Shown: in pieces, positions 553 to 38,640 of the stretch | How positions within the stretch are numbered: position 1 is the first letter of the stretch | How the letters are laid out: each line of letters opens with the position of its first letter | Position numbers and translations under genes: made by a program | Notes under the pieces: generated by a model | Told to the model about the DNA's origin: nothing | Database searches by the model: none | What the model saw: the letters and a program-made list of their open reading frames with translations, nothing else | Assembly: GCA_934668765.1 (NCBI GenBank) | Contig: CAKUOH010000021.1 | Span: 1-38,736 of the forward strand | DNA: 38,736 bases | Source of the DNA: an uncultured Helicobacteraceae bacterium | Lineage (GTDB): Bacteria; Campylobacterota; Campylobacteria; Campylobacterales; Helicobacteraceae | Reading direction: 5' to 3'

Positions 553-642
553 GTCATTGCGATGGCGATAGCTAAAAGCGATACATTTTTATTTATTTTG
601 TGTAGATTGCCACGAATCTGCTATCGCGATTCTCGTAATGAC
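553..642 (-). repeat. Hairpin repeat (one half copy, one full copy)
   Basis: A half copy starts GTCATTGCGA at 553. A full copy in reverse orientation spans 605-642; read on the minus strand it has arms GTCATTACGAG and CGTGGCAATC around a core GAATC ... GATTC. Confidence 0.7.
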
Positions 643-709
643 TGATTATTTATAGCTAAAAATGCACCCAATCTAAATTGCGCCCCACGCAAAAGATACA
701 AATGCGCTT

Positions 710-2260
710 TTACCTTGCCCACTCTGTGGCGCGTATTTCGCGAATCACGCTTACTTTTATTTCGCCCGGATATTGCAAATTTAGCTCGATTTCTTTGGCG
801 ATATTTCGTGCAATTACCACTGCTTCGCTGTCATTTACTTTATCGCTTTGCACGATTACGCGAATCTCCCGCCCCGCGTTGATTGCGTAAGCTTGTTTCA
901 CGCCAAGCTCTTTTAGCGCGATATTTTCCAAGCTCTGCACTCGTTTTAAGAAATTTTCTAGCACTTCGCGTCTAGCCCCCGGACGCGCACTTGAAATGGC
1001 ATCTGCTGCACAAACTGCGGCTGCCTCGATACTTTTTGCTTCCTCATTGCCGTGATGAGCCAAAATCGCATTTATAACCACAGGGTGTTCTTTAAATTTT
1101 CGTGCCAAATCATAGCCGATTGAGATGTGATTCCCGCCCATTTCGTGGGTTAGCGACTTGCCTATATCGTGTAAAAGCCCTGCGCGTTTTGCTAAAGCCT
1201 CATCGCCATCTAACTCACTAGCGATTAGCCCCGATAAATGCGCCACCTCGATAGAGTGCAAAAGCGCGTTTTGCCCGAAACTTGCGCGATATTTCATCTT
1301 GCCGATGAGCTTTTTTAGCTCCGCGCTTACATATCCTAGCCCCAAATCAAGCACCACGCTTTCCCCCTCGCTTAAAATCGTCTGCTCCATTTCGCTTTCG
1401 CATTTGTGGTAAATTTCCTCGATTTTTGCGGGGTGAATCCGCCCATCTTCAATCAGCAAATTTAGCGTTTTTAGTGCAATCGCACGGCGATAGAGATTAA
1501 AACTGCTTAAAGTTATCGTATTTGGCGTATCGTCAATCAGCACATCAACGCCCGTTATCATTTCAAGCGTCCGTATATTGCGCCCGTCCTTGCCTATTAT
1601 GCGCCCTTTCATCTCATCATCGGGCAAAGTAACGATATTTATAAGATTTTCCGCACTGTATTCCCCTGCGTAGCGTGAAGTGGCAAGGGCGATGATATAT
1701 TTTGCCCTGCGCTCGGCATCCTCTTTTGCCTCTTGCTCATATCTGCGAATCAAATTTGCCTTTTCTTTTTTGAGATTTTCCTCTAATTCGCCTAGCAAAA
1801 TCGCCTTTGCCTCGTTTTTTGATAGCGAAGTGTAATTTGTAAGGGTGCAAATCAGCTCATCGCGCTTGTTTTCATACTGCTCTTTTAGCGAATCTGCCAC
1901 CATTTGCGACTTTATAATGGCATTTTTTTTCTGTGCTAAATGCCTTTCTTGCTCATCGATTCGACTAAATTGCTGTTTTATTGAAATCTCTTTTTTCTCT
2001 AACTCCAAAGCCTTTTTGTTGTATAAATCAAGCAATTTGCGCTCTTCAATCTCATATCTTTTTTGCAATTCAATTTCTTGCTCTTTTAGCTTGATTTGGC
2101 TATTTTGGTAGTTTATCTCTGCTTCTTTTTCAATCGCATTTGCTTTGATTCGCGCTTGTTCTATGGCAAGATTTGCGCCTTTTGTGTATAATTTTCGCGC
2201 GAGATAAAATGAAAGGACGCAAGAAATTACCACGCTTAACCCAACTGCTATGAAAATCAT
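710..2260 (-). CDS. rny: Ribonuclease Y (membrane-anchored endoribonuclease)
   Basis: RNase Y is a membrane-bound endoribonuclease that initiates mRNA decay. The 516-residue protein has the full family architecture. There is an N-terminal transmembrane segment (about 2-20), then a long Glu/Lys/Gln-rich coiled coil (about 30-190), then a KH RNA-binding domain with the GxxG-type loop GRIIGKDGRNIR at 219-230. The HD phosphohydrolase domain follows, with H335 in LLHSIEVAHL and the metal-binding pair H364-D365 in LLHDIGKS. Length matches the family. The start ATG at 2258-2260 leaves the membrane anchor intact. The upstream cyclo-ligase frame runs into this gene by 131 bases, probably after a frameshift, so the two were likely translationally coupled. 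The same two genes are neighbours in Campylobacter jejuni as I recall. The identification is secure. Confidence 0.95.
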   Translation of the reverse strand: MIFIAVGLSVVISCVLSFYLARKLYTKGANLAIEQARIKANAIEKEAEINYQNSQIKLKEQEIELQKRYEIEERKLLDLYNKKALELEKKEISIKQQFSRIDEQERHLAQKKNAIIKSQMVADSLKEQYENKRDELICTLTNYTSLSKNEAKAILLGELEENLKKEKANLIRRYEQEAKEDAERRAKYIIALATSRYAGEYSAENLINIVTLPDDEMKGRIIGKDGRNIRTLEMITGVDVLIDDTPNTITLSSFNLYRRAIALKTLNLLIEDGRIHPAKIEEIYHKCESEMEQTILSEGESVVLDLGLGYVSAELKKLIGKMKYRASFGQNALLHSIEVAHLSGLIASELDGDEALAKRAGLLHDIGKSLTHEMGGNHISIGYDLARKFKEHPVVINAILAHHGNEEAKSIEAAAVCAADAISSARPGARREVLENFLKRVQSLENIALKELGVKQAYAINAGREIRVIVQSDKVNDSEAVVIARNIAKEIELNLQYPGEIKVSVIREIRATEWAR

Positions 2261-2879
2261 ATTTACTGCCCCTTGTAGCGACTAAATAATCGCCTTTAAT
2301 GTCGTAATTTTCGCTGATTTTAGCATTTGAAAAATGCAAGATTCGGCTCACAAAAATAATTCGTGGCATTTTTTTTATATTGCTTTTTTGCCACGAATTA
2401 CACAAAAATCGCCCAAAAAATCTATCAAACATTCCTTTGCCAAAACCGATTCGTCTAAATGCGCAATCTACGCCCAAAATAGGCACGATTGCAATGTCAA
2501 TCTTATCAAAATAAACAAAATTAGAATTTTTTGATTCAAAAATATTAAATTTATTTTTTGCCAAAGGCAAACGAAATGGCACGATTTTAAAAGCTTGGTT
2601 CGCCTCCGCACCATTTTGCAAAACAAATGGCAGGAATATTTTAATATTTTTTTGCTTTTTTAGCGCAAAAATCAGCGGAAAAATATCAACTTCTAAATGC
2701 AAAGGCGCGTAAAGTAAAAGATTTTTGGGCTTTTTGGGCGATTTTGCAAATTCGCTTTTGATGATTTTTTGCAAAAGCGTGTTTATTTTTTTATCCCTAA
2801 ATCGCTCTTTTTGTTTGTTTAGATTCGATAGATTTGCCCTTGCCAACGCACGAAAATCACTTTTTAAATCGCCACTCAT
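2130..2879 (-). CDS. 5-formyltetrahydrofolate cyclo-ligase family protein, with read-through tail
   Basis: The family converts 5-formyl-THF to 5,10-methenyl-THF with ATP. The diagnostic C-terminal nucleotide/folate segment is visible at about residues 136-155 (GVDCAFRRIGFGKGMFDRFF), matching the family pattern of a conserved Phe, a GxGKGxxDRF loop and neighbouring basic residues. The N-terminus is Lys/Arg-rich, as is usual. Homology appears to end near residue 204 (DYLVATRG). The last 45 residues are basic, show no family pattern, and overlap the start of rny. One extra G in the GGGG run at 2269-2272 (read on the minus strand) would give ATRGQ followed by TAA, two bases before the rny ATG. 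The annotated end is therefore probably a frameshift product. It diverges from the pgbA-like gene across a 60-base gap. Confidence 0.75.
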   Translation of the reverse strand: MSGDLKSDFRALARANLSNLNKQKERFRDKKINTLLQKIIKSEFAKSPKKPKNLLLYAPLHLEVDIFPLIFALKKQKNIKIFLPFVLQNGAEANQAFKIVPFRLPLAKNKFNIFESKNSNFVYFDKIDIAIVPILGVDCAFRRIGFGKGMFDRFFGRFLCNSWQKSNIKKMPRIIFVSRILHFSNAKISENYDIKGDYLVATRGSKYDFHSSWVKRGNFLRPFILSRAKIIHKRRKSCHRTSANQSKCD

Positions 2880-2906
2880 ATTCTAAAAGTCCCAAAAGTT
2901 TTCTGC

Positions 2907-2912
2907 TATAAT
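2907..2912 (+). promoter_or_regulatory. -10 box for the pgbA-like/glcD pair
   Basis: A perfect TATAAT (2907-2912) lies 27 bases before the ATG at 2940, with an AAGGA ribosome-binding site at 2928-2932. It sits in the 60-base divergent gap with the cyclo-ligase gene. No clear -35 box is visible, which is normal for Campylobacterota housekeeping promoters. Confidence 0.6.
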
Positions 2913-2939
2913 AGCGACTTTATTTTTAAGGATTCGCAA

Positions 2940-3773
2940 ATGAGACAAAAAATGCTATTATTTTTGGGCGTTTTCGCGCTTTTGGGCGCGAATCTAAATT
3001 CGTTATTTGGGGCAGATTCAAGTGCATTTTCTCGCAATATCATAAGCCTAAAAGTGCCAAAGCAAGATAATTTTACCAGCATAAAAATCCCCGCAATGGA
3101 CTTACAGGTAGGCGATAGTGGCATAATTAGCCGTGAAATAAATGGCAATGAATTTATCATCGCAGAAGCGCAAGTCGCAGAGATTACGGAGGGCGTGGCT
3201 GTTGTGAGTGTGAGTGAATTTAGTCAAATGCGCGAAAAATACTTACCAAAACCCAAAGCACAAGTAGCAGAGGGCGATAAAATCACATTTCGCATTCTAT
3301 ATGACAAGGCATTGCTAATTGCGCCCAATCAAAGCGCGTATCAAGGAATCGCCGATAATTTTAAAAATATTGATTTTTTGCATAGCGACATTTTTGCGAC
3401 ATTTTTGGCAAAAGAGGGCGAAAATATGCCTAAAATCGCGGATTTTGCGAAGTTTTGCGCGAAGTTTGATTTGGGGCTTGTCTTTGTGGCGTTGCAAAAT
3501 CGCGTGGAAATTTTGAATTGCGCAAGTTTTAAGATTTTGGATTCAAAGGCTTTGAATCTAGCGGATTTAAGTGTGAATCTGCCCTTTTTCACGCGCATAA
3601 GCAATGAAACGATTAAAGAGATTTTCAATGAGAAAAAATTTGAGCCGTATTTTGCGTATTTTGAAAATTTAATAAAATCACAAAATCCGCAAGATTCATC
3701 ATTGCAAGGCGAAGATTCGCCTAATAAATCCACAGATTTAACCAAATCAAGTGCCAAATCCACCACAAAATAG
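2940..3773 (+). CDS. PgbA/PgbB-like exported protein (plasminogen-binding family N-domain)
   Basis: The 277-residue protein has a signal peptide (about 1-25, cleavage likely near LFGA-D). Its N-terminal domain, with the motifs VGDSGIISREI and FIIAEAQV, resembles the domain shared by H. pylori PgbA and PgbB. The C-terminal 30 residues are Ser/Thr/Lys-rich and low in complexity. In H. pylori the pgbA gene (HP0508) lies directly beside glcD (HP0509), and the same neighbour follows here nine bases downstream, which supports the family call. In H. pylori these proteins bind host plasminogen at the surface. Whether this shorter protein does so is inference, because the Lys-rich C-terminal repeats credited with binding are largely absent. 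Confidence 0.7.
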   Translation: MRQKMLLFLGVFALLGANLNSLFGADSSAFSRNIISLKVPKQDNFTSIKIPAMDLQVGDSGIISREINGNEFIIAEAQVAEITEGVAVVSVSEFSQMREKYLPKPKAQVAEGDKITFRILYDKALLIAPNQSAYQGIADNFKNIDFLHSDIFATFLAKEGENMPKIADFAKFCAKFDLGLVFVALQNRVEILNCASFKILDSKALNLADLSVNLPFFTRISNETIKEIFNEKKFEPYFAYFENLIKSQNPQDSSLQGEDSPNKSTDLTKSSAKSTTK

Positions 3774-3782
3774 GGAGTAAAA

Positions 3783-5153
3783 ATGACATTTAAAGATTTA
3801 AAAAATATCGTAGGCGATGGCGATTATTTTGATGATAGCGCACATTTGAATGCCTACTGCTATGACGCTACAAGGGAGCGATACAAGCCTGATTGCGTGG
3901 TATTTCCGCGCGATGAAGCCGAAGTTAGCAAGATTTTGAAATTTTGCAATGACAATAAAATCGCCGTTACGCCACGGGGCGCAGGGAGCGGATTCACAGG
4001 CGGAGCATTGCCAAAAAATGGTGGCGTGGTAATGGCTATGGAAAAATATTTCAATCAAATTTTAGAGATTGACAAAAAAAATATGTGCGTCCGCGTCCAG
4101 CCTGCCGTGATAAACAAACATTTGCAAGAAGCCGTAGAGCGCGAGGGCTTATTCTATCCGCCAGACCCTGCAAGTGAGAGTTACAGCACCATAGGTGGCA
4201 ATGTAAGTGAGAATGCAGGTGGAATGCGCGCCGCAAAATACGGCATTACCAAAGATTTTGTCCTTGCGCTCCGCGCCGTGTTGCCAAATGGTGATATTAT
4301 CCGCGCAGGGAAAAAGACGATAAAAGATGTCGCGGGATTTAATGTCGCAGGGATTTTAATCGCAAGTGAGGGCAGTTTGGCGGTTATTACAGAAATCACG
4401 CTAAAACTGCTCTCCAAACCAAAACTCAAAAAAACCGCGCTTGGCATTTTTAGCGATATAAATAGCGCGATGGAGGCGGTTTATCAAACGATGTCAAGCG
4501 GAATTGTGCCTGTGGCGATGGAATTTTTGGATAATTTAAGCATTCGCGCTGTGGAGGAAAAATTCAAAAAAGGACTGCCTATGGAGGCTGGGGCGATTCT
4601 CATCACGCAAGTAGACGGCGCACTAGAAGCCGAAATCGCATATCAATTAGAGGGGATTGAGCGCGTATTTAAGCAAAATGGTTGCGTGGAGTTTAAAATC
4701 GCGCAAAATGAAGCACAGGAAGCGGATTTGTGGTTTGCTAGGCGTAATGTTAGCCAAAGTATCAATATTTATGGCACAAAAAAGCTAAATGAGGATATAA
4801 CCGTCCCACGCTCTGCCTTGCCCGAACTTTTGGCGCGTATCGCTGAGATTTCTAAAAAATATGGCGTTACAACGCCTTGTTTTGGGCACACGGGGGATGG
4901 CAATGTGCATACAAATGTAATGGTAAATGGCGCAGATGAAAATGAAGTAAAGCGCGGATATGAGGCGATTACAGAGATTTTCAAAGTCGCTGTTGAGCTA
5001 GGCGGGACACTTAGCGGAGAGCACGGAATTGGCATTTCTAAAGCTCCGTTTATGAATCTAGCTTTTAGCGAGGCGGAGATGAATTTGTTTCGTGCGATAA
5101 AAAGGGCGTTTGACCCAAATAATATTTTGAACCCTAACAAAATGGGGTTATAA
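3783..5153 (+). CDS. glcD: GlcD-type FAD-linked glycolate/lactate oxidase subunit
   Basis: This is a 456-residue FAD-dependent 2-hydroxyacid dehydrogenase. The PCMH-type FAD-binding domain occupies about 35-215, with TPRGAGSGFTGGAL binding the pyrophosphate and SYSTIGGNVSENAGG contacting the flavin. The C-terminal FAD-oxidase domain carries CFGHTGDGNVHTN and GTLSGEHGIGISK, and the protein ends with the typical DPNNILNPNKM. A good ribosome-binding site (GGGAG) precedes the ATG, nine bases after the upstream gene, so the two form an operon. No GlcE or GlcF partner lies next to it in this window. It probably oxidises glycolate or D-lactate and feeds electrons to the quinone pool; the exact substrate cannot be read from sequence. 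Confidence 0.9.
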   Translation: MTFKDLKNIVGDGDYFDDSAHLNAYCYDATRERYKPDCVVFPRDEAEVSKILKFCNDNKIAVTPRGAGSGFTGGALPKNGGVVMAMEKYFNQILEIDKKNMCVRVQPAVINKHLQEAVEREGLFYPPDPASESYSTIGGNVSENAGGMRAAKYGITKDFVLALRAVLPNGDIIRAGKKTIKDVAGFNVAGILIASEGSLAVITEITLKLLSKPKLKKTALGIFSDINSAMEAVYQTMSSGIVPVAMEFLDNLSIRAVEEKFKKGLPMEAGAILITQVDGALEAEIAYQLEGIERVFKQNGCVEFKIAQNEAQEADLWFARRNVSQSINIYGTKKLNEDITVPRSALPELLARIAEISKKYGVTTPCFGHTGDGNVHTNVMVNGADENEVKRGYEAITEIFKVAVELGGTLSGEHGIGISKAPFMNLAFSEAEMNLFRAIKRAFDPNNILNPNKMGL

Positions 5154-5186
5154 AAAATGGGCATAGCGTTTGCAATGACGAATCGT

Positions 5187-5265
5187 GGATTGCCACGAAT
5201 CGCTTCGCGATTCTCGCAATGACGGCGTGGGATTTGTCATTGCTATCGCAATTTCTCGCAATGAC
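5187..5265. repeat. Hairpin repeat copies after glcD
   Basis: Copy 5187-5223 (minus orientation) has a perfect core stem GAATCGC gaa GCGATTC between the conserved arms. A compact copy at 5236-5265 has GTCATTGC at one end and GCAATGAC at the other. Confidence 0.75.
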
Positions 5266-5300
5266 GGGCGGGAGTGGTTTGCCACAAGCAATCTAAATCA

Positions 5301-5555
5301 CTACTTTTGACTTGGATTTCCTACTTCCACCTTATCTTTGATTTTATCAAAGAGTTTATCGCCTATACCTTTGATATTTTTCAAATCCTCTGGCTTTGTG
5401 AATGGTGTTTTTTCGCGATATTTGATGATTTCCTCTGCTTTTTTATCGCCGATTCCATCCAAACTCATCAGCTCTTTTTTAGTCGCTGTGTTTAGATTTA
5501 CCGCGCCAAATGCGAAACTTACAAAAAACAATAATGCAAAAAATAACCTTTTCAT
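5301..5555 (-). CDS. ComEA-like helix-hairpin-helix DNA-binding protein, copy 1
   Basis: This 84-residue exported protein has a signal peptide (about 1-18, ending AFGA) and a single helix-hairpin-helix domain, with motifs LNTATKKELMSLDGIGDKKA and IKGIGDKLFDKI. Length and layout match C. jejuni Cj0011c, a small periplasmic DNA-binding protein that contributes to natural transformation, so a role in DNA uptake is likely. The coding sequence differs from the copy at 34474-34728 at only about six of 255 bases, five of them silent; the single replacement is Phe11 versus Leu11. A TACAAT -10 box lies at 5591-5596. The gene stands alone between repeat clusters. Confidence 0.85.
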   Translation of the reverse strand: MKRLFFALLFFVSFAFGAVNLNTATKKELMSLDGIGDKKAEEIIKYREKTPFTKPEDLKNIKGIGDKLFDKIKDKVEVGNPSQK

Positions 5556-5590
5556 AATGCAGTCCTTTAATTTGAGATTTAAAAAGCGGG

Positions 5591-5596
5591 ATTGTA
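5591..5596 (-). promoter_or_regulatory. -10 box of comEA copy 1
   Basis: TACAAT on the minus strand, 35 bases before the ATG. An AAAGGA ribosome-binding site lies between them. Confidence 0.5.
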
Positions 5597-5740
5597 GCAG
5601 GTTTGCTATGAAGAATCAATAAAAATCAAATAAAAAAATTTCGCTATTTAAAGCAAAATAAAGAATTTAGAAAAATAAAAATACATTTTTTTGTTATTGT
5701 GAGAATTTGCGTTAGCAGAAGAGTTTCGCATTTGATTCCC

Positions 5741-5774
5741 CCCCCTCCCTTGCGGAGGGGGCTAGGGGGCGGGT
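5741..5774 (-). repeat. GC-rich repeat, copy 1
   Basis: Read on the minus strand the element is ACCCGCCCCC, a short spacer, then CCCCCTCCGCAAGGGAGGG. The second part is itself an inverted repeat (CCCTCC gcaa GGGAGG). It is strikingly GC-rich against the AT-rich background. Other copies are at 5929-5963 and 13829-13863. Confidence 0.75.
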
Positions 5775-5783
5775 AATCACTCC

Positions 5784-5910
5784 GTCATTGCGAAAAAATG
5801 AGCGTAAGCGAATTTTTGTGGCAATCCACACAAAAAATAGGTTGCTTTGCCTTGCTATCGCAAGGACTCGCAATGACAAATCGCTGTGAATTGCTTCGAC
5901 TCGTAATGAC
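5784..5910. repeat. Three hairpin repeats between GC-rich copies
   Basis: Copy 5784-5828 has an AAAAAT / ATTTTT core. Copy 5840-5877 (minus) has CCTTGC gata GCAAGG. Copy 5889-5910 (minus) has no core at all: the two arms GTCATTACGAG and TCGAAGCAATT abut. Confidence 0.75.
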
Positions 5911-5928
5911 GGGAATTTTGAGGATTTT

Positions 5929-5963
5929 ACCCACCCCCTTAATCCCCCTCCGCAAGGGAGGGG
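5929..5963 (+). repeat. GC-rich repeat, copy 2
   Basis: ACCCACCCCC, spacer TTAAT, then CCCCCTCCGCAAGGGAGGGG. It is inverted relative to copy 1, so the pair brackets the hairpin repeats at 5784-5910. Confidence 0.75.
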
Positions 5964-5998
5964 AACAATAAAATTTGGATTACTAAAGAAACTTCGTT

Positions 5999-6034
5999 TT
6001 GCCACGAATCTACTATCGCGATTCTCGCAATGAC
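5999..6034 (-). repeat. Hairpin repeat
   Basis: Minus-orientation copy with arms GTCATTGCGAG and CGTGGCAA around GAATC ... GATTC. Together with the elements from 5556 onward it accounts for most of the gap between comEA and the lipoprotein gene. I see no further gene there. Confidence 0.7.
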
Positions 6035-6149
6035 AATAGGATTGGGGATTACTTCGGACATTCGCCATCTCAATGACGGCAGGGTTTTAAATCTAAAATT
6101 TTCCAACAAAATTGTCATATTTTTTTCAAAATTTAAGCAGATTTTAAGC

Positions 6150-6167
6150 GGGGGGGGGGATTATAAT
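6150..6167 (+). promoter_or_regulatory. Promoter with a G10 tract in the spacer, upstream of the lipoprotein gene
   Basis: A run of ten G (6150-6159) ends two bases before a perfect TATAAT (6162-6167). The lipoprotein ATG follows at 6210. The tract falls within the -35/-10 spacer, so slippage would change spacing and promoter strength. Confidence 0.6.
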
Positions 6168-6209
6168 TTCATTTGTCTTTTTAGACTAAATTTTTTAAAA
6201 GGAACTTCA

Positions 6210-6665
6210 ATGTTAGGTAAGATTTTAGGTGCATTATGTGCTTTTATGGCGATTTTTATGGTGGGTTGTAGCTTTTTTGGCGGTGGCGATGATGAATCAA
6301 AGCCACTATATCAGCCAAAACAGCTAGATGCACAGGCGAAAGGCATCACTGTCGCCAAAAGCACACCATATAATTGCAAGATTTTAGGTGAGGTAGAGGG
6401 CAAAGACTATGCCACAGGCAAAAGAGGCGCGACAAAAGAGTCCATAAGGGAGGGCGCGGTAAATGATGTGCGCAATCAAGCAGCCCAAGTCGCAGGAAAA
6501 GGCACAAGGGCGATGGTAGCGATTACCAAAGAAGTGAGCGAATGCGAAGTTAGCGTGGGCTTTATGCCAAAAACCGTTAGTTGCAGTAATATCCCAAGCA
6601 ACGCCACGAATCCTAAACCGATTTCATATCGAATCTCCGCGCAAGTCTATGACTGCGGAAAGTAG
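6210..6665 (+). CDS. DUF4156-like lipoprotein
   Basis: The ATG at 6210 has an AAAAGGAA ribosome-binding site and gives a 151-residue lipoprotein. Its signal peptide ends in the lipobox MVG-C20, followed by a Gly/Asp-rich linker. The mature domain has CKILGEVEGKDY, a region resembling GAVNDVRNQAAQ and a C-terminal YRISAQVYDC. This pattern recalls DUF4156/RcsF-type small lipoproteins, in which cysteines form disulfides; four Cys besides C20 are present. The frame stays open upstream to about 6030, but that part is repeat-derived and lacks a start signal. The cellular role is unknown. It probably sits in the outer membrane, since no Asp follows Cys20. Expression may be phase-variable through the adjacent G10 tract. 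Confidence 0.75.
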   Translation: MLGKILGALCAFMAIFMVGCSFFGGGDDESKPLYQPKQLDAQAKGITVAKSTPYNCKILGEVEGKDYATGKRGATKESIREGAVNDVRNQAAQVAGKGTRAMVAITKEVSECEVSVGFMPKTVSCSNIPSNATNPKPISYRISAQVYDCGK

Positions 6666-6681
6666 AATTAAAGATTTGTTT

Positions 6682-7121
6682 TGATTGCTAGGGTGAATCG
6701 CAGATTTGCCTTGCAATCTCTGCCTTCGTAGCAGATTCGTGGCAATCCACAAAGAAAAAATCAGTCATTATGAGAAGTGAATTGATAACCAAGTTATGCG
6801 GAATCTAAAAAATCACATTTTTTAGATTAGCGTTAAATTGTCGTCATTGCGAGGCAGTTTGAGCGATAGCGAAAACAACGAAGCGATATGTTTCAGCGAC
6901 TTACGAATCGCTTGAGAATTTCTTGTTTTAGGCGAATCTAAATGCAAAAATTTAATTGATTTATTGTTCTATCATTGATTTTTTATTTTTTAAAATCGTA
7001 TGATTTGGATTGTTTCGATTCGGCGTTGCCGAATCCTGTAATGGCAGACGGAGACGCTATTCGCACGATTTGTCTCACAATGACGAATTATTAAGATTGA
7101 TTCGTGCAACGAATCACAATC
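6682..7121. repeat. Gap filled by degenerate and intact hairpin repeats
   Basis: The roughly 610 bases between the lipoprotein gene and porB hold no gene I can support. Repeat-like pieces lie at 6682-6748 and 6843-6890. An excellent copy lies at 7007-7046 (minus) with the eight-base core GATTCGGC aac GCCGAATC. A separate palindrome at 7095-7121 has halves GATTCGT / ACGAATC. Confidence 0.6.
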
Positions 7122-7276
7122 GAAGTAATAGCGGTGTGGCTTCTTGCGTTAGGTGCGCTTGTCAAGCGAAATAGGACTTGAGCATCAATGGTTGCTTTGA
7201 CACTCGCATTTGTATAAAAACAATGCGCAAAGATTGCCCAAAAACAAATTGTATCCACGCAAAAAGACACTCAATC

Positions 7277-8221
7277 TTATACTTTCGCCTCTTCGCGTCT
7301 TTGCAAATATTCCCATTTCGCATCGACATCTTTTTGAATCGCTTCGATTATATGCTCATTTTCTTTTTTAAATAGATGCTTGAATCGTCCCTGTGCAGCG
7401 AGATAATCACGCACGGGCAAAATATTTTTCGGACGATAAGTTATATGCAATTCGTGCCCATCAATGATTTCAAATAGCGGAAATACAAGCGAATCCACCG
7501 CCAAATCGCTAACCTCAACGGTCTTGTCAGAATTAAACCTCCACTCAGTCGTGCAGGCACTCATCGCGTTTATAAAAGTCGGTCCGTCCGTATCAATGGC
7601 GCGTTTGATTTTTTTATTCATATCTTTCCATTTATTTGGGGCGACTTGCGCGACATAGGGCGCACCGTGCGCTGCCATAATGGATAGCAAGTCCTTTTTC
7701 TTTTCCTTTTTGCCATAGCTCACATCGCCAGCAGGAGAAGTCGAAGTGCTTGAACCTAGCGGAGTTGAGCCACTGCGCTGTCCGCCTGTGTTTGCATAGA
7801 CTTCGTTATCAAGGCAAATGTAGGTTATATCGTGTCCGCGCTCAAAGCACCCGCTAATCCACTGAAATCCTATGTCATAGGTGCTTCCATCGCCACCAAA
7901 TGCGACAAATTTGGGCTTTTGTCCTGTATATCTACCCTTTCTAGCGAGTGCTTTATACATTGCCTCTGCCCCAGCCACCGCTGTGCTACCATTTTCAAAG
8001 CCGATATGAATCCAAGGCACATTCCAGCTTGTATAAGGGTATACCGCCGTTGAAACCTCCAAGCACCCTGTCGAAGTGCCAAGTAAAAGTGGCGCGTCAG
8101 TGGCATTTAGCACTTCACGCACAATCATTCCGTGCGCACAGCCCGGACAAAGTAAATGCGAACCCTCAAATCGCTCCGCCACATTTGAAAATTGCTTTAA
8201 ATTTTTAATCTCTCTTGTCAT
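7277..8221 (-). CDS. porB: Pyruvate:ferredoxin (flavodoxin) oxidoreductase beta subunit
   Basis: This 314-residue thiamine-diphosphate-binding subunit decarboxylates pyruvate to acetyl-CoA in the four-subunit Por complex. Visible features are the CPGCAHG cysteine pair near the N-terminus (iron-sulfur ligands), the TPP/Mg motif GDGSTYDIG, and the downstream NEVYANTGGQRS segment typical of PFOR beta chains. It is the last gene of a minus-strand operon ordered gamma, delta, alpha, beta, the order known from H. pylori (HP1108-HP1111). The ATG at 8221 has a GGGGGA ribosome-binding site. In H. pylori the electrons pass to flavodoxin rather than ferredoxin. The enzyme is oxygen-sensitive, which fits a microaerophile. 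Confidence 0.95.
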   Translation of the reverse strand: MTREIKNLKQFSNVAERFEGSHLLCPGCAHGMIVREVLNATDAPLLLGTSTGCLEVSTAVYPYTSWNVPWIHIGFENGSTAVAGAEAMYKALARKGRYTGQKPKFVAFGGDGSTYDIGFQWISGCFERGHDITYICLDNEVYANTGGQRSGSTPLGSSTSTSPAGDVSYGKKEKKKDLLSIMAAHGAPYVAQVAPNKWKDMNKKIKRAIDTDGPTFINAMSACTTEWRFNSDKTVEVSDLAVDSLVFPLFEIIDGHELHITYRPKNILPVRDYLAAQGRFKHLFKKENEHIIEAIQKDVDAKWEYLQRREEAKV

Positions 8222-8232
8222 TTTATCCCCCT

Positions 8233-9456: not shown

Positions 9457-9857
9457 TATTCGCCCCCTTTATTTTTAGCTTGTTTTTCAGGCCATTTTTT
9501 TAGCACTTCATCATTATCCTCAATGTCATTATACATTAGCAAGGATTTTGGATTGCTAGGACACACGCTTGAGCAAACACCACAACCCTTGCAATGCACA
9601 TAATCCACGCCTTGCAGTTTGTCATTTCGCGCGATAATAGAGCTATCAGGGCAATACAACCAGCAATTAAAGCAATTTATGCAATGCTCCGCGTTAAACA
9701 CGGGCTTTTCTACACGCCAATGCGCTACACTTGCGGTGTATGAGTTGTTTTGCGTGTAGTTTCTATCCTCTTGTTGTTTATTGATATTATCGCTTTCATC
9801 GGCAAATGGAAATAGCACCGAGCCGATTTCAAATTCATTCCAACCTTTATGCTCCAT
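9456..9857 (-). CDS. porD: Pyruvate:ferredoxin (flavodoxin) oxidoreductase delta subunit (2x[4Fe-4S])
   Basis: The 133-residue polyferredoxin subunit carries two CxxCxxCxxxC clusters: C59INCFNCWLYC69 followed by P, and a second in HCKGCGVCSSVCPSNP. These pass electrons from the TPP site to the external acceptor. The N-terminal 50 residues are an extension before the clusters, as in other Campylobacterota PorD. A strong GGAGG ribosome-binding site precedes the ATG. It lies 10 bases after porC and overlaps porA by one base. Confidence 0.93.
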   Translation of the reverse strand: MEHKGWNEFEIGSVLFPFADESDNINKQQEDRNYTQNNSYTASVAHWRVEKPVFNAEHCINCFNCWLYCPDSSIIARNDKLQGVDYVHCKGCGVCSSVCPSNPKSLLMYNDIEDNDEVLKKWPEKQAKNKGGE

Positions 9858-9867
9858 TTTTTCCTCC

Positions 9868-10428: not shown

Positions 10429-10512
10429 ATTATCTCCCTTTGAGTTGAAATTGAAATGCGATTGTATAATTTTGCCACTTAAAATTTGATTTTTAGGCAT
10501 TAAGTTTGGTGT

Positions 10513-10545
10513 GCTTTGTGTTAAAATGTCGCATTTGGAAATTTT
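10513..10545 (+). repeat. 33-base direct repeat, copy 1
   Basis: An exact match to 11389-11421, containing TTAAAATG (a possible -10 box) and ending CATTTGGAAATTTT. The two copies flank the segment holding the PH-domain gene. Confidence 0.85.
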
Positions 10546-10568
10546 GGTAGTGAATCGTGTGGCGAATT

Positions 10569-10807
10569 GTCATTGCGATGCTTTGAAAAAGCCGAAGCGT
10601 CTGTGCGAAGCACCAACCCACACTTGCAAATCCACGATTTATTTATAGATTGCCACAAAAATTCGCTACGCTCATTTTTTCGCAATGACAAATCCCACGC
10701 CATCATTGCGAGTCCTTGCGATAGCAAGGCGAAGCAATCTATTTATGATTTTTGCGGATTTATTTTTGGATTGCCACGATTTGGCAAATCCAAAATCTTG
10801 CAATGAC
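10569..10807. repeat. Cluster of four hairpin repeats in the porC/PH-gene gap
   Basis: Copies lie at 10569-10612 (degenerate), 10648-10689 (minus, AAAAAT/ATTTTT core), 10702-10740 (core CCTTGC gata GCAAGG) and 10768-10807 (minus, partly degenerate). No gene is supported in this 400-base gap. The frames that are open here are translations of repeats. Confidence 0.75.
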
Positions 10808-10834
10808 GATAAGGTATATGTGGATTGTTTTATA

Positions 10835-11272: not shown

Positions 11273-11306
11273 TTTTTCTCCTTGTAAATAAAATTTGTAA
11301 AAATGT

Positions 11307-11321: not shown

Positions 11322-11388
11322 TATTTTAATTTTAGCTTAAAAAAATATCTTTTTTGCAAGTTTTGACAAATTTTTAGTAACTAAATGC

Positions 11389-11438: not shown

Positions 11439-12572
11439 ATGGGCGAAAAGATTTTATGTGAATCCTGCGTTTTGGATTCAAATGGACTAGCGATTCATTA
11501 TGATATTTATTTGGATTCTGGGCTTCAATCATCGCAATATAGGGGCGTGGTGCAAATCGCACACGGAATGATAGAGCATCGCGCAAAATACAAGGCAATC
11601 GCGGAGTTTTTGGCAAAAAATGGCTTTATCGTGGCGATAAATGACCATCGCGGACACGGAGATTCGGTGAATTGTGAGCCACCATTGCAAAAATCTACGC
11701 AGGATTTAAGCAAATCTATGCAGGATTCAAAGTTAGATTCGCGCGAATCTAATATAGATTGCCACGATTCGCCTACCGACAAATCTCGCAATAACAGCGT
11801 AGATTTGCCAAAAAAAGATTCGCTCCAAAATAGCGATAAAATCTATCTTGGCGAAATGGGCGCAAACGGCTTTGAAACCGCACTAGATGATATGCACAAC
11901 CTACATTTAGCCCTAAAATCCCGCTTTAAACCCAAAAAATTTATCCTAATTGGGCATTCTATGGGCTCACTTCTATCACGCCGATTTTTGCAGGAATATG
12001 AGAGTTGCCTAGATATGCTTGTGCTTTGCGGGACGCCAAAGCCAGAGCCTTTCATCAATGTCGGCATTGCGTTTTTAAAAATCTTGCGCTTTTTTGGGCT
12101 AAAAAATATCGCAAGGGACTTTGCAAATAAATTTTCACTTCTTTCATTCAACGCAAAATACGCAAAAATCGATAATTTAGCGGACGGACAAAATAGCGGG
12201 ACATTTTGGATAAACCGCGATACTGCGGAGCTCAAACGCAAACTAGGCGATTACAAGCAGAATTTTACCTTTAGCATCGATAGCTTTATCAATCTTTTTG
12301 CGGGATTGCGCCGTGTTTTTAGCCCATATCCGCGCAAGGTAGCAAATCCTAGCTACGAATCGCGCTTACCGATTTTAATGATAAGTGGCGAAGATGACGC
12401 GTGCGGTGGCTTTGGCAAAGGTGCGATTTGCGCCTTTAAGCACATAGTGGCGCAAGGCTATGGCAACGCAAGGCTTATTCTTTACGCAAACGCCCGCCAC
12501 GAGCTATTTTTGGAGCTAAATAAAGATGAGGTTTTTAGCGATATTTTGAGTTTTATAAAGCGCAATCTATGA
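11439..12572 (+). CDS. Alpha/beta hydrolase, monoacylglycerol-lipase-like, with an inserted repeat segment
   Basis: The ATG at 11439 is chosen over TTG at 11433 because GGAG (11428-11431) is correctly spaced; this gives 377 residues. Family features are HGMIEHRAKY (oxyanion region), DHRGHGDS, the nucleophile elbow GHSMGS, the acid ISGEDDACG and the catalytic His in NARHELFLELN. Together these match lysophospholipase/monoglyceride-lipase type hydrolases. Between DHRGHGDS and GEMGANGF lies an unusual Ser/Asp/Lys-rich insert of about 55 residues. Part of it (11757-11795) is a degenerate hairpin repeat read in frame. The family cap domain begins just after, so the insert may be tolerated as a surface loop. 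The stop overlaps the ligase start (ATGA), so the two are coupled. Confidence 0.85.
   Translation: MGEKILCESCVLDSNGLAIHYDIYLDSGLQSSQYRGVVQIAHGMIEHRAKYKAIAEFLAKNGFIVAINDHRGHGDSVNCEPPLQKSTQDLSKSMQDSKLDSRESNIDCHDSPTDKSRNNSVDLPKKDSLQNSDKIYLGEMGANGFETALDDMHNLHLALKSRFKPKKFILIGHSMGSLLSRRFLQEYESCLDMLVLCGTPKPEPFINVGIAFLKILRFFGLKNIARDFANKFSLLSFNAKYAKIDNLADGQNSGTFWINRDTAELKRKLGDYKQNFTFSIDSFINLFAGLRRVFSPYPRKVANPSYESRLPILMISGEDDACGGFGKGAICAFKHIVAQGYGNARLILYANARHELFLELNKDEVFSDILSFIKRNL
11757..11795 (-). repeat. Degenerate hairpin repeat inside the hydrolase coding sequence
   Basis: On the minus strand the arms read GTTATTGCGAG and CGTGGCAATC, with a partly paired core. It lies entirely in frame within codons 107-119 of the hydrolase gene. 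Confidence 0.65.
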
Positions 12573-13672: not shown

Positions 13673-14296
13673 CTATTTTGGCGCGAATCTAAAATAAAAA
13701 ATTCCCGTCATTGCGAGGCGTTGCGACAGCAAGGGCGAAGCAATCCACAAATTTTTGTCATTGCGAGAATCGCGCAGTGATTCGTGGCAATCCAAATGTG
13801 AAAATTGTGTGTTATTTTGAGTGTTAAACCCACCCCCCTTTGTCCCCCTCCGCAAGGGAGGGGTTAGAAATTTTACGATCCCCCCGTTTTTAAGATAGCC
13901 TTTAAGCATTGCATTTAGCGATTGATTATCTGTCTTTGCCTTTTGCAAAATCGATTTTAGTGTCTCAATCGTTTTGGGTGAGACATATTCTAGTAAATCG
14001 ATAATTTCAGCGTATTTTTCTATATCATTGCGATAAAGTTTTTGCAAAATCTTTTTGCTTTTAGATTCGCTAGAAAATAGCTCTTGCTCGTAGATATTAA
14101 GTGCTTCTGCGATATATGGGAGCAAATCCGCCTTTAACTCAATGCTGCCATTTAGATAGGCATAAATGCTTGATTCACTAGGAATCTCGCTTGTTTTGGC
14201 GGCGCGGTATTCAAGCGCAATAATACGATTTGCAAGCTCACGCTTTGTCATATTTTTTGCCTTTAAGGTGGCGTTGATTTGCTCTAAAATGCTCAT
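13673..14296 (-). CDS. XRE-family helix-turn-helix regulator with repeat-derived C-terminal tail
   Basis: Residues 1-75 form an XRE/Cro-type DNA-binding domain. The MTKRELANRI helix pair and the SESSIYAYLNGS recognition region are followed by the usual hydrophobic closure, with an insertion between the two helices. Residues 75-140 are helical, perhaps for dimerisation. From about residue 140 the protein is the translation of one GC-rich repeat (13829-13863) and two hairpin repeats (13707-13794), giving a tail with no family character. The original stop was presumably lost when the repeats arrived. It diverges from the nuclease-like gene across 123 bases, so it probably represses that gene and itself. 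Confidence 0.65.
   Translation of the reverse strand: MSILEQINATLKAKNMTKRELANRIIALEYRAAKTSEIPSESSIYAYLNGSIELKADLLPYIAEALNIYEQELFSSESKSKKILQKLYRNDIEKYAEIIDLLEYVSPKTIETLKSILQKAKTDNQSLNAMLKGYLKNGGIVKFLTPPLRRGTKGGGFNTQNNTQFSHLDCHESLRDSRNDKNLWIASPLLSQRLAMTGIFYFRFAPK
13707..13794 (+). repeat. Two hairpin repeats in the 3' end of the XRE gene
   Basis: Copy 13707-13747 ends in the CGAAGCAATCC arm type. Copy 13757-13794 ends in the CGTGGCAATCC type. Both lie inside the reading frame of the regulator. Confidence 0.75.
13829..13863 (+). repeat. GC-rich repeat, copy 3
   Basis: Same orientation and structure as 5929-5963, with ACCCACCCCC followed by CCCCCTCCGCAAGGGAGGGG. It is read in frame in the XRE gene, encoding PPLRRGTKGGG. 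Confidence 0.75.
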
Positions 14297-15542: not shown

Positions 15543-15855
15543 GTCATTGCGAGGGCGAATCGTAGATTTGCACAAAGCAATCCAAACAAAATCGTGCCAC
15601 ACGCCGCCATTGCGAGACTTGCTTGTAAGTCGTGGCAATCCAAAGGGCGCGAATCTAAAAGAAAATGAAAATAATGCCCCAAAAGCGAATCAATAAATTA
15701 TTTGCATTTAAAATCCCACAAATTCGCCCAAAGTAAGCAATTCTCATTTGATTTAAAAGTCATTAGTGGATTGTTTCGATTCGCGTTGCAAATCTCGCAA
15801 TGACGGGAGAATGGATTTTTGGATTGCTTCGGCTTTTTCAAAGCCTCGCAATGAC
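15543..15855. repeat. Four hairpin repeats in the gap after the nuclease gene
   Basis: 15543-15583 has core GCGAATC gta GATTTGC. 15606-15642 has GACTT ... AAGTC. 15768-15804 (minus) has GATTTGC aac GCGAATC. 15821-15855 (minus) has GGCTT tgaaa AAGCC. The first and third are near mirror images of the same stem. No gene is supported between 15521 and 15981. Confidence 0.8.
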
Positions 15856-18898: not shown

Positions 18899-19002
18899 GG
18901 ATTGCTTGTTTTCACAAGGACTCGTAATGACAGAGTGGTGCGAATCTTGCATTTGATTCGTCATTTGCTTTGGCGAATCGCAGATTTACGCAAAGCAATC
19001 CA
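18899..19002. repeat. Two hairpin repeats before the DUF2779 gene
   Basis: 18899-18931 (minus) has core CTTGT gaaa ACAAG. 18960-19002 is degenerate, with GCGAATC ... GATTTaCGC. Confidence 0.7.
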
Positions 19003-20553: not shown

Positions 20554-20824
20554 GTCATACTGAGATTATCACACAACAAAGCAATCCATAAATCCCATAG
20601 ATTCTTCGCTACGCACAAAGTGCTACGCTCAGAATGACAAAATGGTGGATAATTCGTCATTGCGAAAAATGAGCATAAGCGAATTTTTGTGGCAATCCAC
20701 ACAAAAAATAGATTGCTTCGCCTTGCTATCGCAATGACTTGCAATGACGATTCGGCGTGGATTACTAAAAAAACTGCGCTTTGCTTGTTTTGCCACGACT
20801 TGCATTCGCAACTCTCACAATGAC
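20554..20824. repeat. Cluster of hairpin repeats, including an arm variant
   Basis: Copies are at 20656-20698 (AAAAAT/ATTTTT core), 20711-20748 (minus) and 20789-20824 (minus). At 20599-20638 (minus) the arms are GTCATTCTGAG and CGAAGAATCT with core GCAC ttt GTGC, so the outer stem changes from ATTGC/GCAAT to ATTCT/AGAAT. A degenerate piece lies at 20554-20587. No gene is supported between 20531 and 20869. Confidence 0.75.
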
Positions 20825-23839: not shown

Positions 23840-24721
23840 TTGCAGGACATTTCAAACACACTAAATCACCTAGCAATCATAATGGACGGCAACGGCAGAT
23901 GGGCTAAAAATCGCTCCTTGCCACGCACAGATGGGCATAAAGAGGGCGCAAACGCCGTGCGCGAGATTACTAAATGGTGTGCGAAAAATCACATACAATT
24001 TCTAACGCTCTATGCCTTTTCTACGGAGAATTGGCTGCGTCCAAAAAAGGAAGTGGATTTTTTGATGAGATTGCTTGAAAAATATTTAAAAAACGAAGAG
24101 CGCACTTATAGCGACAATAATATCCGCTTTAAGGCAATCGGCGATATTAGCGCGTTTTCGCCAAAACTGCGAGATTTGATTGTGAAATTAGAATCAAAAA
24201 CGGCGCAAAATACCGCGCTGACACAGATTTTAGCACTAAATTATGGCGCGAAAGATGAAGCCGCAAGGGCGATAATGAAAATGATAGATTCGCGTAAAGC
24301 CCACGAATCCGCCACGCCGTCATTGCGAGATTTGGCAACGCCAAATCGTGGCAATCAAAAACTTAATGAATTATCATTGCAAGATTTAGCGAGTGTCCAA
24401 TCGTGGCAATTCGCAGAATTTGCGAACGAAGTGAAGCAACCATCCACAAAAAAATCGCCCAAATCTAGCGCAGATTCGCAAAAATCCAAAGCCGATATTC
24501 TAGCCGAGTTTGAATCCGCCCTAGATACCGCAAATATCCCACCTGTGGATTTGCTAATCCGCACAGGTGGGGAAATGCGCCTATCAAATTTTTTGCTTTA
24601 TCAGTGCGCTTATGCAGAGCTTTATTTTTCAAAGACTTTATTCCCAGACTTTAAAGTAGCGGAGTTAGAGCGAATCATAGCGGATTTTAAATCGCGCCAT
24701 AGGCGATTTGGCGAAGTTTAG
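23840..24721 (+). CDS. uppS: Undecaprenyl diphosphate synthase carrying an in-frame repeat insertion
   Basis: This cis-prenyltransferase makes the C55 lipid carrier for peptidoglycan and LPS. A TTG start (AAAGGA upstream) gives 293 residues; bacterial UppS is usually 230-250. All family motifs are present: MDGNGRWAK (Asp16), HKEGANAVREI, FSTENWLRPKKEV, NYGAKDEAARA, IRTGGEMRLSNFLLYQ and RHRRFGEV. The excess lies between NYGAKDEAARAIMKMIDS and PPVDLLIRTGGE (about residues 150-230). It contains one excellent and one degenerate hairpin repeat translated in frame (SLRDLATPNRGNQ and LSLQDLASVQSW). All catalytic motifs survive, so the enzyme is probably active. The normal substrate-binding helices near that position must accommodate the insert. 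Confidence 0.92.
   Translation: MQDISNTLNHLAIIMDGNGRWAKNRSLPRTDGHKEGANAVREITKWCAKNHIQFLTLYAFSTENWLRPKKEVDFLMRLLEKYLKNEERTYSDNNIRFKAIGDISAFSPKLRDLIVKLESKTAQNTALTQILALNYGAKDEAARAIMKMIDSRKAHESATPSLRDLATPNRGNQKLNELSLQDLASVQSWQFAEFANEVKQPSTKKSPKSSADSQKSKADILAEFESALDTANIPPVDLLIRTGGEMRLSNFLLYQCAYAELYFSKTLFPDFKVAELERIIADFKSRHRRFGEV
24319..24447 (+). repeat. Hairpin repeats inside uppS
   Basis: 24319-24357 has intact arms and a perfect eight-base core GATTTGGC aac GCCAAATC. 24373-24410 is degenerate, and 24412-24447 is a third partial piece ending GTGAAGCAACC. All lie in the uppS frame (about codons 160-203). Confidence 0.85.
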
Positions 24722-35960: not shown

Positions 35961-35966
35961 TCATAG

Positions 35967-37790: not shown

Positions 37791-37812
37791 CTTTATATTC
37801 CTCCTTTAAGAT

Positions 37813-38295
37813 TTAGAAATTTCTCAAATGCCCAATATTCTTGTGGCACGAAACGCAGCTCAATGATTTATCATAGTTATGGATTTTCGCCGTAGTTGGA
37901 TTCACGACATTACTAGACAAGTTTGCGTGGCAACGGATACAATTATCCTGCACCACGACTTTTGTCTTTTTAGTAGGCGTGAAATTTGTCGGCAAATCTT
38001 TTAATGTGAAGGCATACGCGTGATTAAAGCCACTTTGGGCTTTCATACTCCATTTTGCAGCAAAGCCTTCAGGGATATGACAATCATTACACGAAGCGTG
38101 ATTTTTGTGGCTACTCACGCTCCAATCCTTATAAACCTCATTCATCACATGGCAGTTATTACAAGCCTTTGAATCATCGCTAAAATAGGAAAATCCATTC
38201 GCATACCAAAATGTGAATGCTCCCGCTCCAAAGACGAATCCAATGGCTATGATAACCGCAAGCGTAAGAAGAGGAATAGGTTTTTTATTATTCAT
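37813..38295 (-). CDS. nrfH: Cytochrome c nitrite reductase small subunit (quinol dehydrogenase)
   Basis: This 160-residue NapC/NirT-family protein passes electrons from menaquinol to NrfA. One N-terminal membrane helix (about 8-30) is followed by four haem motifs: C45NNCH with Met51 close behind (the unusual CXXCHxM ligation of NrfH), C69NDCH, C119IRCH and C147VSCH. A GGGGGA site precedes the ATG. It is the first gene of the nrfHA operon, headed by an FNR-type site at 38374-38387. Confidence 0.95.
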   Translation of the reverse strand: MNNKKPIPLLTLAVIIAIGFVFGAGAFTFWYANGFSYFSDDSKACNNCHVMNEVYKDWSVSSHKNHASCNDCHIPEGFAAKWSMKAQSGFNHAYAFTLKDLPTNFTPTKKTKVVVQDNCIRCHANLSSNVVNPTTAKIHNYDKSLSCVSCHKNIGHLRNF

Positions 38296-38345
38296 TCCAA
38301 GAATATCCCCCTTTTAATTTTAGAAAAATTTGCAAAATGCTTGGA

Positions 38346-38387
38346 ATTCTAACAAAATTTTTTCTAAAAAAATTTGACTTATATCAA
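38346..38387 (-). promoter_or_regulatory. nrfHA promoter with a CRP/FNR-type operator
   Basis: TTGACTTATATCAA (38374-38387) matches the FNR consensus TTGAT-N4-ATCAA in all but one position. A -10 box TAGAAT on the minus strand (38346-38351) predicts transcription from about 38339, placing the site centre at about -41.5, the classic class II activation position. Confidence 0.65.
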
Positions 38388-38544
38388 GTTTTTAATATTT
38401 TATTAAGATTTTTTTGATGTTTTATAGAAAATATAAATCTTGATTCGTGGATTTGTTGCTAAATTGTGATGCGAGTCGTAGATTTGCATTTTTTGCCTAT
38501 CATTTGCAAGATTCTAGCAATGCCAAAATCGTGTTTCGTTTTTT

Positions 38545-38640
38545 GTCATTGCGAGAAATCTACATTAGCAGATTCGTGGCAATCTATTTTTTAGATTTAT
38601 AAATTGCTTATGTGATTCTACCAAATCGACTCGCAATGAC
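38545..38640. repeat. Two hairpin repeats upstream of nrfHA
   Basis: 38545-38585 has core AATCT ... AGATT between the standard arms. 38601-38640 (minus) is degenerate. They fill the gap between the nrf promoter and the truncated Sel1 gene. Confidence 0.7.

Follow-up and report, generated by a model that had tools for sequence, protein, structure and literature searches.

Introduction

Among described bacterial repeats, those closest to the hairpin family considered here, which occurs in a 38,736-nt contig of an uncultured Helicobacteraceae bacterium (GenBank assembly GCA_934668765.1, contig CAKUOH010000021.1, positions 1 to 38,736 of the forward strand; hereafter the window), are the CGTC-tagged repetitive extragenic palindromic (REP) sequences, a superfamily that includes RPE-4 and RPE-6 of Rickettsia and dRS3 of Neisseria (Di Nocera, De Gregorio, Rocco 2013, PMC3733652). 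In the sections of that report cited here, these REPs have stems of 8–9 bp and loops of 4–5 nt (its Table 1), and no transposase gene is flanked by CGTC repeats (PMC3733652). A second reference point is provided by REPINs, inverted dimers dispersed as units, in which, according to the cited part of the original description, compensatory changes are often found on the two sides of the hairpin into which the intervening sequence folds (Bertels and Rainey 2011, PMC3116915).

The hairpins of the window share their arms and differ in the core between them, which remains self-complementary. Judged from the assembled sequences of the window and its relatives, conserved arms together with conserved flanks or spacer carry unrelated self-complementary cores, and cores recur on other scaffolds; the cores appear to change both by compensatory steps and by wholesale replacement. 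Among the titles listed by literature searches on REP/RAYT/REPIN systems, CGTC-tagged REPs, Rickettsia palindromic elements, REP gene conversion, Helicobacter palindromes, and the arm sequences, none concerns this family in Helicobacter or the exchange of cores. Gene conversion was reportedly proposed as a route of REP evolution by Higgins and colleagues in 1988.

Hairpins with Self-Complementary Cores

With up to one mismatch, the 5′ arm GTCATTGCGAG has 29 matches in the window, compared with 0.62 expected, and none of 100 shuffles reaches 29. When both arms are required (at most one mismatch each), 24 matches are obtained, representing 23 places because those at 20710–20738 and 20710–20748 are one element. 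The count of more than 25 copies in the initial annotation therefore holds only if degenerate or one-armed copies are included and falls short for two-armed ones. For the match given as 5977–6034, the true, degenerate 3′ arm lies at 5997–6006, the longer match being due to a chance 3′ arm.

The hairpin consists of a tag, CGTC or TGTC, which stays unpaired at one end, an outer stem (ATTGC/GCAAT), an internal loop in which GA faces GTG, GCG, or GAA (GA/GNR), a constant G-C pair that closes this loop, the variable core, and a tail, which is CCA or CTA in most window copies. The GTC of the arm is preceded by C or T in 21 of the 24 two-armed matches and by A in three. Hairpins with the 3′ arm CGTGGC or CGCGGC are referred to as type A, and those with CGAAGC as type B. 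They sit between, and sometimes within, the genes of the window.

That these repeats form a hairpin family with self-complementary cores, as the initial annotation had it, is confirmed. In the 22 distinct cores of the window, the mean longest stem is 4.55 bp versus 2.79 bp after shuffling (sd 0.16; maximum 3.18 in 200 shuffles), and in all six sets analyzed, namely the window and parts of five relatives, this mean exceeds the largest of 200 shuffles (4.35 versus 2.71 in Helicobacter rodentium, G082; 3.36 versus 2.64 in G117; 4.06 versus 2.80 in G059; 3.30 versus 2.78 in G119; and 3.62 versus 3.12 in G120, the last with 8 distinct cores). When the six sets are pooled (181 distinct cores, no pairing filter), the 5′ half of a core is paired at 72.5% of positions when set against its own 3′ half, compared with 34.6% against the 3′ half taken from a different core of equal length. 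The pairing of cores is thus copy-specific. Covariation of the cores, for which the initial annotation had foreseen a statistical check, is evident in ten 36-nt type A hairpins with distinct cores, whose covariation score is 0.511 versus 0.102 (sd 0.037) and in which 21 cells change on both sides versus 6.1 expected; for either measure, none of 500 shuffles is as high. Distinct cores number 51, 59, and 54 in the portions of H. rodentium, G117, and G059, respectively, that were examined. A few fixed core classes spread by simple copying, the case that the initial annotation had set against its own proposal, are not seen: 137 of the 181 distinct cores (those at least 60% paired) fall into 54 clusters, and in G117 the cores are unlinked from the scaffold, as described below.

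Cores containing N or outside 9–27 nt were excluded before counting, as were 3′ arms not starting with CG or TG (CG only in one earlier count); counts by type cover the listed A and B forms only, and cores paired at less than 60% were removed solely for the mismatch spectrum. Comparisons of flank pairs exclude cores with N or shorter than 5–6 nt and flanks with N or a contig end. Many of the relatives' genomes are drafts or parts, and portions of each were read.

The cores quoted in the initial annotation at 5187, 10702, 15821, 18899, 24319, and 38545 are present as written, and that at 7007 is present in a degenerate copy. The copies and the reading frame that carries one of them are as follows.

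604..642, minus strand: type A hairpin, 3′ arm CGTGGCAATC, core AATCGCGATAGCAGATT (two-armed pattern search)
5187..5223, minus strand: type A hairpin, core AATCGCGAAGCGATT
5237..5265, minus strand: degenerate hairpin copy
5784..5827, plus strand: type A half of an inverted dimer, tags outside; partner at 5839–5877, spacing 12
5839..5877, minus strand: type B-like half (3′ arm CAAAGCAACC) of the dimer with 5784..5827
5888..5910, minus strand: short degenerate copy
5997..6034, minus strand: type A hairpin, 3′ arm degenerate, core AATCGCGATAGTAGATT
10647..10689, minus strand: type A hairpin, near-copy of the 5784 hairpin; tags inside in the pair with 10702
10702..10740, plus strand: type B hairpin, core TCCTTGCGATAGCAAGG
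10768..10807, minus strand: type A hairpin
11756..11795, minus strand: type A hairpin, 5′ arm with one mismatch
13707..13746, plus strand: type B hairpin
13757..13793, plus strand: type A hairpin
15543..15583, plus strand: hairpin with 3′ arm CAAAGCAATC
15606..15641, plus strand: type A hairpin, core ACTTGCTTGTAAGT
15768..15804, minus strand: type B hairpin, 3′ arm degenerate
15821..15855, minus strand: type B hairpin, core GCTTTGAAAAAGC
18899..18931, minus strand: hairpin with a shortened 3′ arm
20656..20698, plus strand: type A half of the second copy of the 5784–5877 dimer, same order, spacing 12
20710..20748, minus strand: type B half of the dimer with 20656..20698
23840..24721, plus strand: uppS-like reading frame, 293 aa, carrying the in-frame repeat (NCBIfam PRK14833, two stretches)
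24319..24356, plus strand: type A hairpin within the uppS frame, encoding SLRDLATPNRGN
24374..24383, plus strand: second, degenerate 5′ arm in uppS, coding for the beginning of the SLQDL stretch
38545..38585, plus strand: type A hairpin, core AAATCTACATTAGCAGATT; dimer with 38601–38640
38601..38640, minus strand: partner of the 38545 hairpin, core and 3′ arm degenerate

The Folding Strand

Mismatches within the paired cores are distributed unequally between the strands. On the strand reading GTCATTGCGAG, A.G exceeds C.T by 21 to 4 cluster votes (p 0.0009) and G.T exceeds A.C by 29 to 9 (p 0.0017), as counted over the 137 distinct paired cores in 54 clusters. Type A contributes A.G 15 versus C.T 4 and G.T 24 versus A.C 7, and type B contributes A.G 6 versus C.T 0; G.T 5 versus A.C 3 in type B alone is not significant, which speaks against the strand reading. 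The recurring A.G pairs are what we take to be sheared tandem pairs. The stability of isolated cores, calculated for 179 distinct cores, favors the top strand in 97, disfavors it in 25, and is equal in 57 with RNA parameters, the corresponding numbers with DNA parameters being 94, 13, and 72; this core-alone version was used because whole-hairpin strand energies are confounded by the arms, a shuffled-core control with RNA parameters being biased as well. Given that a mismatch strand bias is not expected of a double-stranded palindrome or of purely mutational half-copying, it points to selected single-strand folding, and folding of one strand is most likely under selection.

Layout of the Dimers

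Hairpins that neighbor each other within 120 bp are arranged in the six sets as 113 tags-outside, 48 tags-inside, and 34 head-to-tail pairs. The tags-outside layout is the commonest in G082, G117, G059, G119, and G120, and is not so in the window (4 tags-outside, 1 tags-inside, and 6 head-to-tail). In five of six sets, the most frequent arm combination joins one type A with one type B hairpin, a ranking taken from the six most frequent combinations per set, with the window's four dimers all different. The spacing of dimers is typical of the species: 26 and 41 nt in G117, mostly 25–26 in G119, 35–38 in G120, 48–61 in 14 of 20 in H. rodentium, and 12 for two dimers of the window. One dimer occurs twice in the window, at 5784–5877 and 20656–20748, and the same two hairpins are found tags-inside at 10647–10740.

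How the Cores Change

Stepwise change is apparent among related cores, pairs of which are not independent. Cores differing at a single position show 38 loop changes and 21 stem changes, and among 21 two-position stem differences, seven lie within one pair, five of which convert one Watson-Crick pair into another. The initial annotation had proposed that either structure is selected or both halves of the core are rewritten together, and the evidence supports this in part on both sides: strand-specific mismatches and compensatory steps within core classes speak for selection, and whole cores that differ between copies with like arms and flanks or spacer speak for joint rewriting, which is not seen among the flank-similar pairs of the window itself.

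Wholesale replacement is indicated by 82 same-genome pairs in which both 40-nt flanks are at least 75% identical, comprising 35 pairs with the same core, 13 with intermediate cores, and 34 with unrelated cores. Of the latter, 24 come from G117, five from G059 (of its 28 pairs), and five from G062 (of 7), the G059 and G062 cases lying in contigs of ~2 Mb. Loci L238 and L239 of G059, on a contig of 2.08 Mb, share ~220 bp with three hairpins in near-identical form, and the middle core alone is swapped wholesale. In G062, a single right flank with its arms bears six different cores across eight copies.

The most extensive material is that of G117, in which 36 inverted dimers hold 23 distinct B cores and 25 distinct A cores, all 36 combinations being different. 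Two families of dimers that share a spacer (12 and 11 dimers) have arms 0.87–1.00 and spacers 0.81–0.83 identical, a likeness partly built in by the search (at most one mismatch per arm, families joined at 75%), and cores and outer flanks, which were left free, have identities of 0.55–0.62, versus an all-pairs background of 0.57 and 0.60, and 0.48–0.53, respectively; all core combinations differ within both families (12/12 and 11/11). The unrelated outer flanks indicate that these are dispersed units rather than segmental duplications, with tips unlinked from the scaffold. Some cores, for example, AGGCGCTAGCCT and CGAGTGTAACGAG, recur on both G117 scaffolds, and CATTCGCTAGAATG is present in both A and B hairpins, so that core and 3′ arm type are not necessarily transferred together. 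Nevertheless, the 3′ arm variant correlates with the core class (0.84 versus 0.61 shuffled in G117; 0.87 versus 0.77 for CGTG/CGCG arms only, with 54 of 2000 shuffles as high), suggesting that exchange occurs mostly within a type. When pairs are chosen by their outer flanks only, core identity in G117 is 0.57 versus a background of 0.58 (34 pairs); this choice yields no pairs in G120.

A role for the arms as boundaries is suggested by the copy within uppS, where the hairpin at 24319–24356 is in frame, stop-free, and read as SLRDLATPNRGN. Of 120 listed UppS relatives, 49 were aligned, including 29 of the 31 that ranked highest. The segment between the two 5′ arms is missing in four of these 29 close relatives, in three of them with the junction SLRDL-ASVQSWQ, and the junction falls exactly at the arm-coded SLRDL, common to the second, degenerate arm, so that the arms can act as sites of recombination. 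As a separate observation, the UppS loop (window 24319–24420; P0001–P0061) is a hotspot of in-frame, apparently repeat-derived insertions, with protein lengths of 238–304 aa. At the protein level, the inserted peptide is SLRDLATPNRGN in close relatives and a different, type-B-like one in others, with the sequence SLRGDSPKQSIN in P0036 and variants of it elsewhere.

Several observations weigh against the exchange of whole cores or narrow its reach. Of the 29 close uppS relatives, 25 retain the core-coded peptide DLATPN with no more than one residue altered, implying that core replacement is slower than their divergence. With pairs chosen by outer flanks only, core identity is 0.76 versus a background of 0.48 in G059 (21 pairs), 0.89 in G058 and G062 together (3 pairs), 0.71 in G119 (3), and 0.80 in G082 (1). 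Flank-similar pairs have the same core in all three cases in the window and both cases in H. rodentium (G082), with none different, and no such pairs occur in G058, G119, or G120. In addition, six tags-inside pairs of G059 have a near-constant B core, and five of their six A cores are variants of one type. No strain pair was found in which one orthologous core is replaced with both flanks intact, and the exchange itself was never observed; the best orthologous case, G058 versus G060, alters the left flank too. The comparison of orthologous sites (G117/G120/G119 and G058/G060/G062) mostly failed to align because intergenic regions turn over too fast. Moreover, the 24 of 34 replacement pairs from G117 come from a fragmented draft with short contigs and N runs, in which misassembly at repeats is possible, and four of the 34 have one core paired at less than 60%, at least one of them through a mis-assigned 3′ arm. 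Finally, flank-similar pairs are not independent, and the identity thresholds were chosen after examples had been seen.

Distribution across Genomes

The repeat pattern was found in 40 of 121 Helicobacteraceae genomes, with 1 to 314 copies each, and in 72 of 397 sampled Campylobacterota genomes, with up to 666 copies; its occurrence is patchy. Sister repeats in G117, G119, G120, and G059 have the same tag and GA loop, and outer stems ATTCT, ATGTT, ATATT, and ATACT, so that the outer stem of the window represents one class among several; the search for them, with TCT, GTT, ATT, or ACT replacing TGC, gave 0–1 matches in a random control. An ATCGC outer-stem variant was seen in G062. In the same genome, a repeat run occurs twice on contig C1 (~1954–13193 and 56088–67327) at a constant offset of 54,134 bases, which suggests a large duplication or an assembly duplicate. 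The intergenic regions of G058, G060, and G062 (L308, L340, and L341) contain poly-G/poly-C runs of varied length and other repeat modules, and near-empty orthologous sites are present in those of G060.

The statement in the initial annotation that similar arms occur in unrelated bacteria proved correct. Two Methylosinus plasmid records match a type B hairpin over 35 of 35 bases, and looser matches lie on plasmids of Methylocystis, Novosphingobium, Legionella, and Halomonas; overall, the type B sequence is found in 9 of 72,556 plasmid records and 2 of 50,697 phage records. A megablast search of window positions 1–25000 against plasmids gave no match. The genes of the window are typical of Helicobacteraceae and include those for RNase Y, PorABC, IleS, and NrfH, among others. 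Window PorA is 86–87% identical to that of three uncultured Helicobacteraceae, and in the 121 genomes of the family to which H. cinaedi (G009) belongs, the top matches of IleS reach 64–65%, indicating that the species of the window is not among these 121 Helicobacteraceae genomes.

Possible Mechanisms

The likeliest explanation, which we regard as probable, is that the tips of a REPIN-like scaffold are exchanged through template switching or short conversion bounded by the arms. The repeats would be mobile elements of a REPIN-like, non-autonomous kind and relatives of the CGTC-tagged REP superfamily, their scaffold would often be an inverted dimer of one type A and one type B hairpin with species-typical spacing, and the core, or tip, would be free in sequence and constrained only to fold in the strand reading GTCATTGCGAG. 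Cores would be exchanged as units between copies through template switching or short-tract conversion, with the 10–11-nt arms as entry and exit points, possibly because the single-stranded hairpin tip is a site of replication stalls or gaps. Selection would then purge non-folding cores, presumably because folding is needed for the spread of the element or for tolerance of it. As far as sequence comparison goes, tip exchange may be regarded as a supported but unproven mechanism.

It is possible, but rather unlikely, that the tips are true exchangeable cassettes, another repeat's tip being copied in by a dedicated or recruited activity that acts on the single-stranded hairpin bounded by tag, GA loop, and arms. 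Were this the case, the genome would keep a combinatorial population of scaffolds and tips, and the repeat would be a modular mobile element with conservation opposite to that of REPINs and without a Y1 transposase.

More doubtful is the excision and re-insertion of hairpin monomers by a Y1 HUH transposase (TnpA-REP/RAYT or IS200/IS605), whereby different monomers would enter the same joint. Such enzymes are described, in the cited parts of the reports, as using palindromic REP-like units, inverted dimers, and a strand-specific fold (PMC8266576, PMC6006769), and G116 and G119 are repeat carriers with matches to PF01797, the Y1 profile. Against this, PF01797 is found in 29 of 121 Helicobacteraceae genomes, 2 of 40 repeat carriers, and one of the 11 genomes that carry 40 or more copies, the ten relatives without a match including two with main contigs of more than 2 Mb, G059 and G062; G014 has 23 Y1 matches and no repeat, and in the sections of the 2013 report cited above the CGTC repeats likewise flank no transposase gene (PMC3733652). 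The relation to carriage of at least 40 copies is plain absence rather than a significant anti-correlation (Fisher p 0.46), and for any copy the numbers are 2 of 40 carriers versus 27 of 81 non-carriers (p 0.0005). These results come from one profile, which an unrecognized HUH enzyme may escape, and apply to the relatives rather than to the window's own genome. TnpA-REP as the mobilizer is thus rejected for most of the rich genomes, and the TnpA-REP link suggested in the initial annotation is unlikely.

Two other candidate enzymes were considered. SbcD is above the cut-off in none of the 121 Helicobacteraceae genomes (38 weak, sub-cut-off matches) compared with 8 of 14 controls, and an SbcCD cut with gap repair at the hairpin is not favored; the hairpin nuclease SbcCD may be absent from Helicobacteraceae, and its absence may let hairpins persist. 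Reverse transcriptase (PF00078) is found in 5 of the 11 richest genomes versus 9 of 110 others (p 0.003, uncorrected for kinship), and was set aside as the agent since 6 of the 11 rich genomes are without it, hit lengths vary, and G058 and G062 are related.

A role of the hairpins in RNA, such as termination or mRNA stability, would keep drifting cores paired through selection on the RNA fold, with no exchange; this is quite unlikely as the explanation. The excess of G.T over A.C on one strand fits such a role, as does the location of many copies between tandem or convergent genes (37 and 33, respectively, of 84 in H. rodentium, by crude reading frames). However, copies between tandem genes, by the same crude frames, are 67 sense and 55 antisense to transcription, with no orientation bias, which makes an RNA function less likely than one at the DNA level. 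The halves of a dimer lie on opposite strands, and each type favors its own top strand in the A.G versus C.T comparison (A 15/4, B 6/0); drift does not yield unrelated cores inside scaffolds at least 81% identical; and a scan of the window against Rfam 15 gave no match above the gathering threshold.

An origin of flank-similar copies with different cores by separate insertion events, in which unlike hairpins enter a single favored target within older, larger repeats, is about as improbable. The mosaic of modules that makes up the intergenic regions of G058, G060, and G062 and several short, apparently empty sites in G060 would suit this explanation, but an unoccupied version was found for none of 40 flank pairs in the parts of genomes that made up the loci, and the conserved part in G117 is the spacer between hairpins, which belongs to the element rather than to the target. 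Least probable is quasi-palindrome correction alone, in which one half is rewritten from its partner by intrastrand template switching and complementarity is kept without selection or a repeat-specific protein, for it predicts no strand bias of mismatches, contrary to the A.G and G.T excesses given above, and cannot import a core already present elsewhere in the genome.

The proposed arm-bounded exchange of tips on a REPIN-like scaffold bears on the spread and diversification of CGTC-tagged REPs, which the cited sections of the 2013 report leave open (PMC3733652): the data separate slow compensatory drift from whole-tip replacement, indicate the folding strand, and speak against a role of the expected enzyme family in most of the Helicobacteraceae that are rich in the repeat. 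The family offers a concrete, testable case of hairpins that change sequence without losing shape, with G059 and G062, each having a contig of more than 2 Mb, and G117 as the genomes for a direct look at tip exchange between strains.

Comparison with Known Systems

The features shared with CGTC-tagged REPs, as set out in the cited sections, are as follows: an unpaired CGTC/TGTC tag, AT first stem pairs, and a CCA-like tail; a predominance of inverted dimers with tags outside and often unlike halves; and intragenic copies with no associated transposase (PMC3733652). The hairpins here differ in having a 5-bp outer stem, a GA internal loop, and a variable apical stem, which make a longer hairpin, and Helicobacter is absent from the main text of that report (PMC3733652). 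The family is accordingly filed, by a comparison of descriptions rather than consensus sequences, as a variant related to the CGTC-tagged REP superfamily, and is placed outside its four families because it departs from their 8–9-bp stem and 4–5-nt loop.

Rickettsia palindromic elements, also likened by description, share the stop-free, in-frame insertion into a gene, of which uppS is the one case followed up in the window, but the host here belongs to the Helicobacteraceae, and the placeable copies in relatives lie mostly outside long reading frames. With respect to REPIN/RAYT systems, their RAYT (PF01797) is without a match in the ten of 11 rich relatives noted above, and the tag is CGTC/TGTC instead of the GTAG that the cited part of the REPIN description gives for RAYT-associated REPs (PMC3116915). 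In REPINs, as described there, the REP ends are conserved and the intervening sequence varies (PMC3116915), whereas in G117 conservation lies in the spacer and arms, and variation in the tips.

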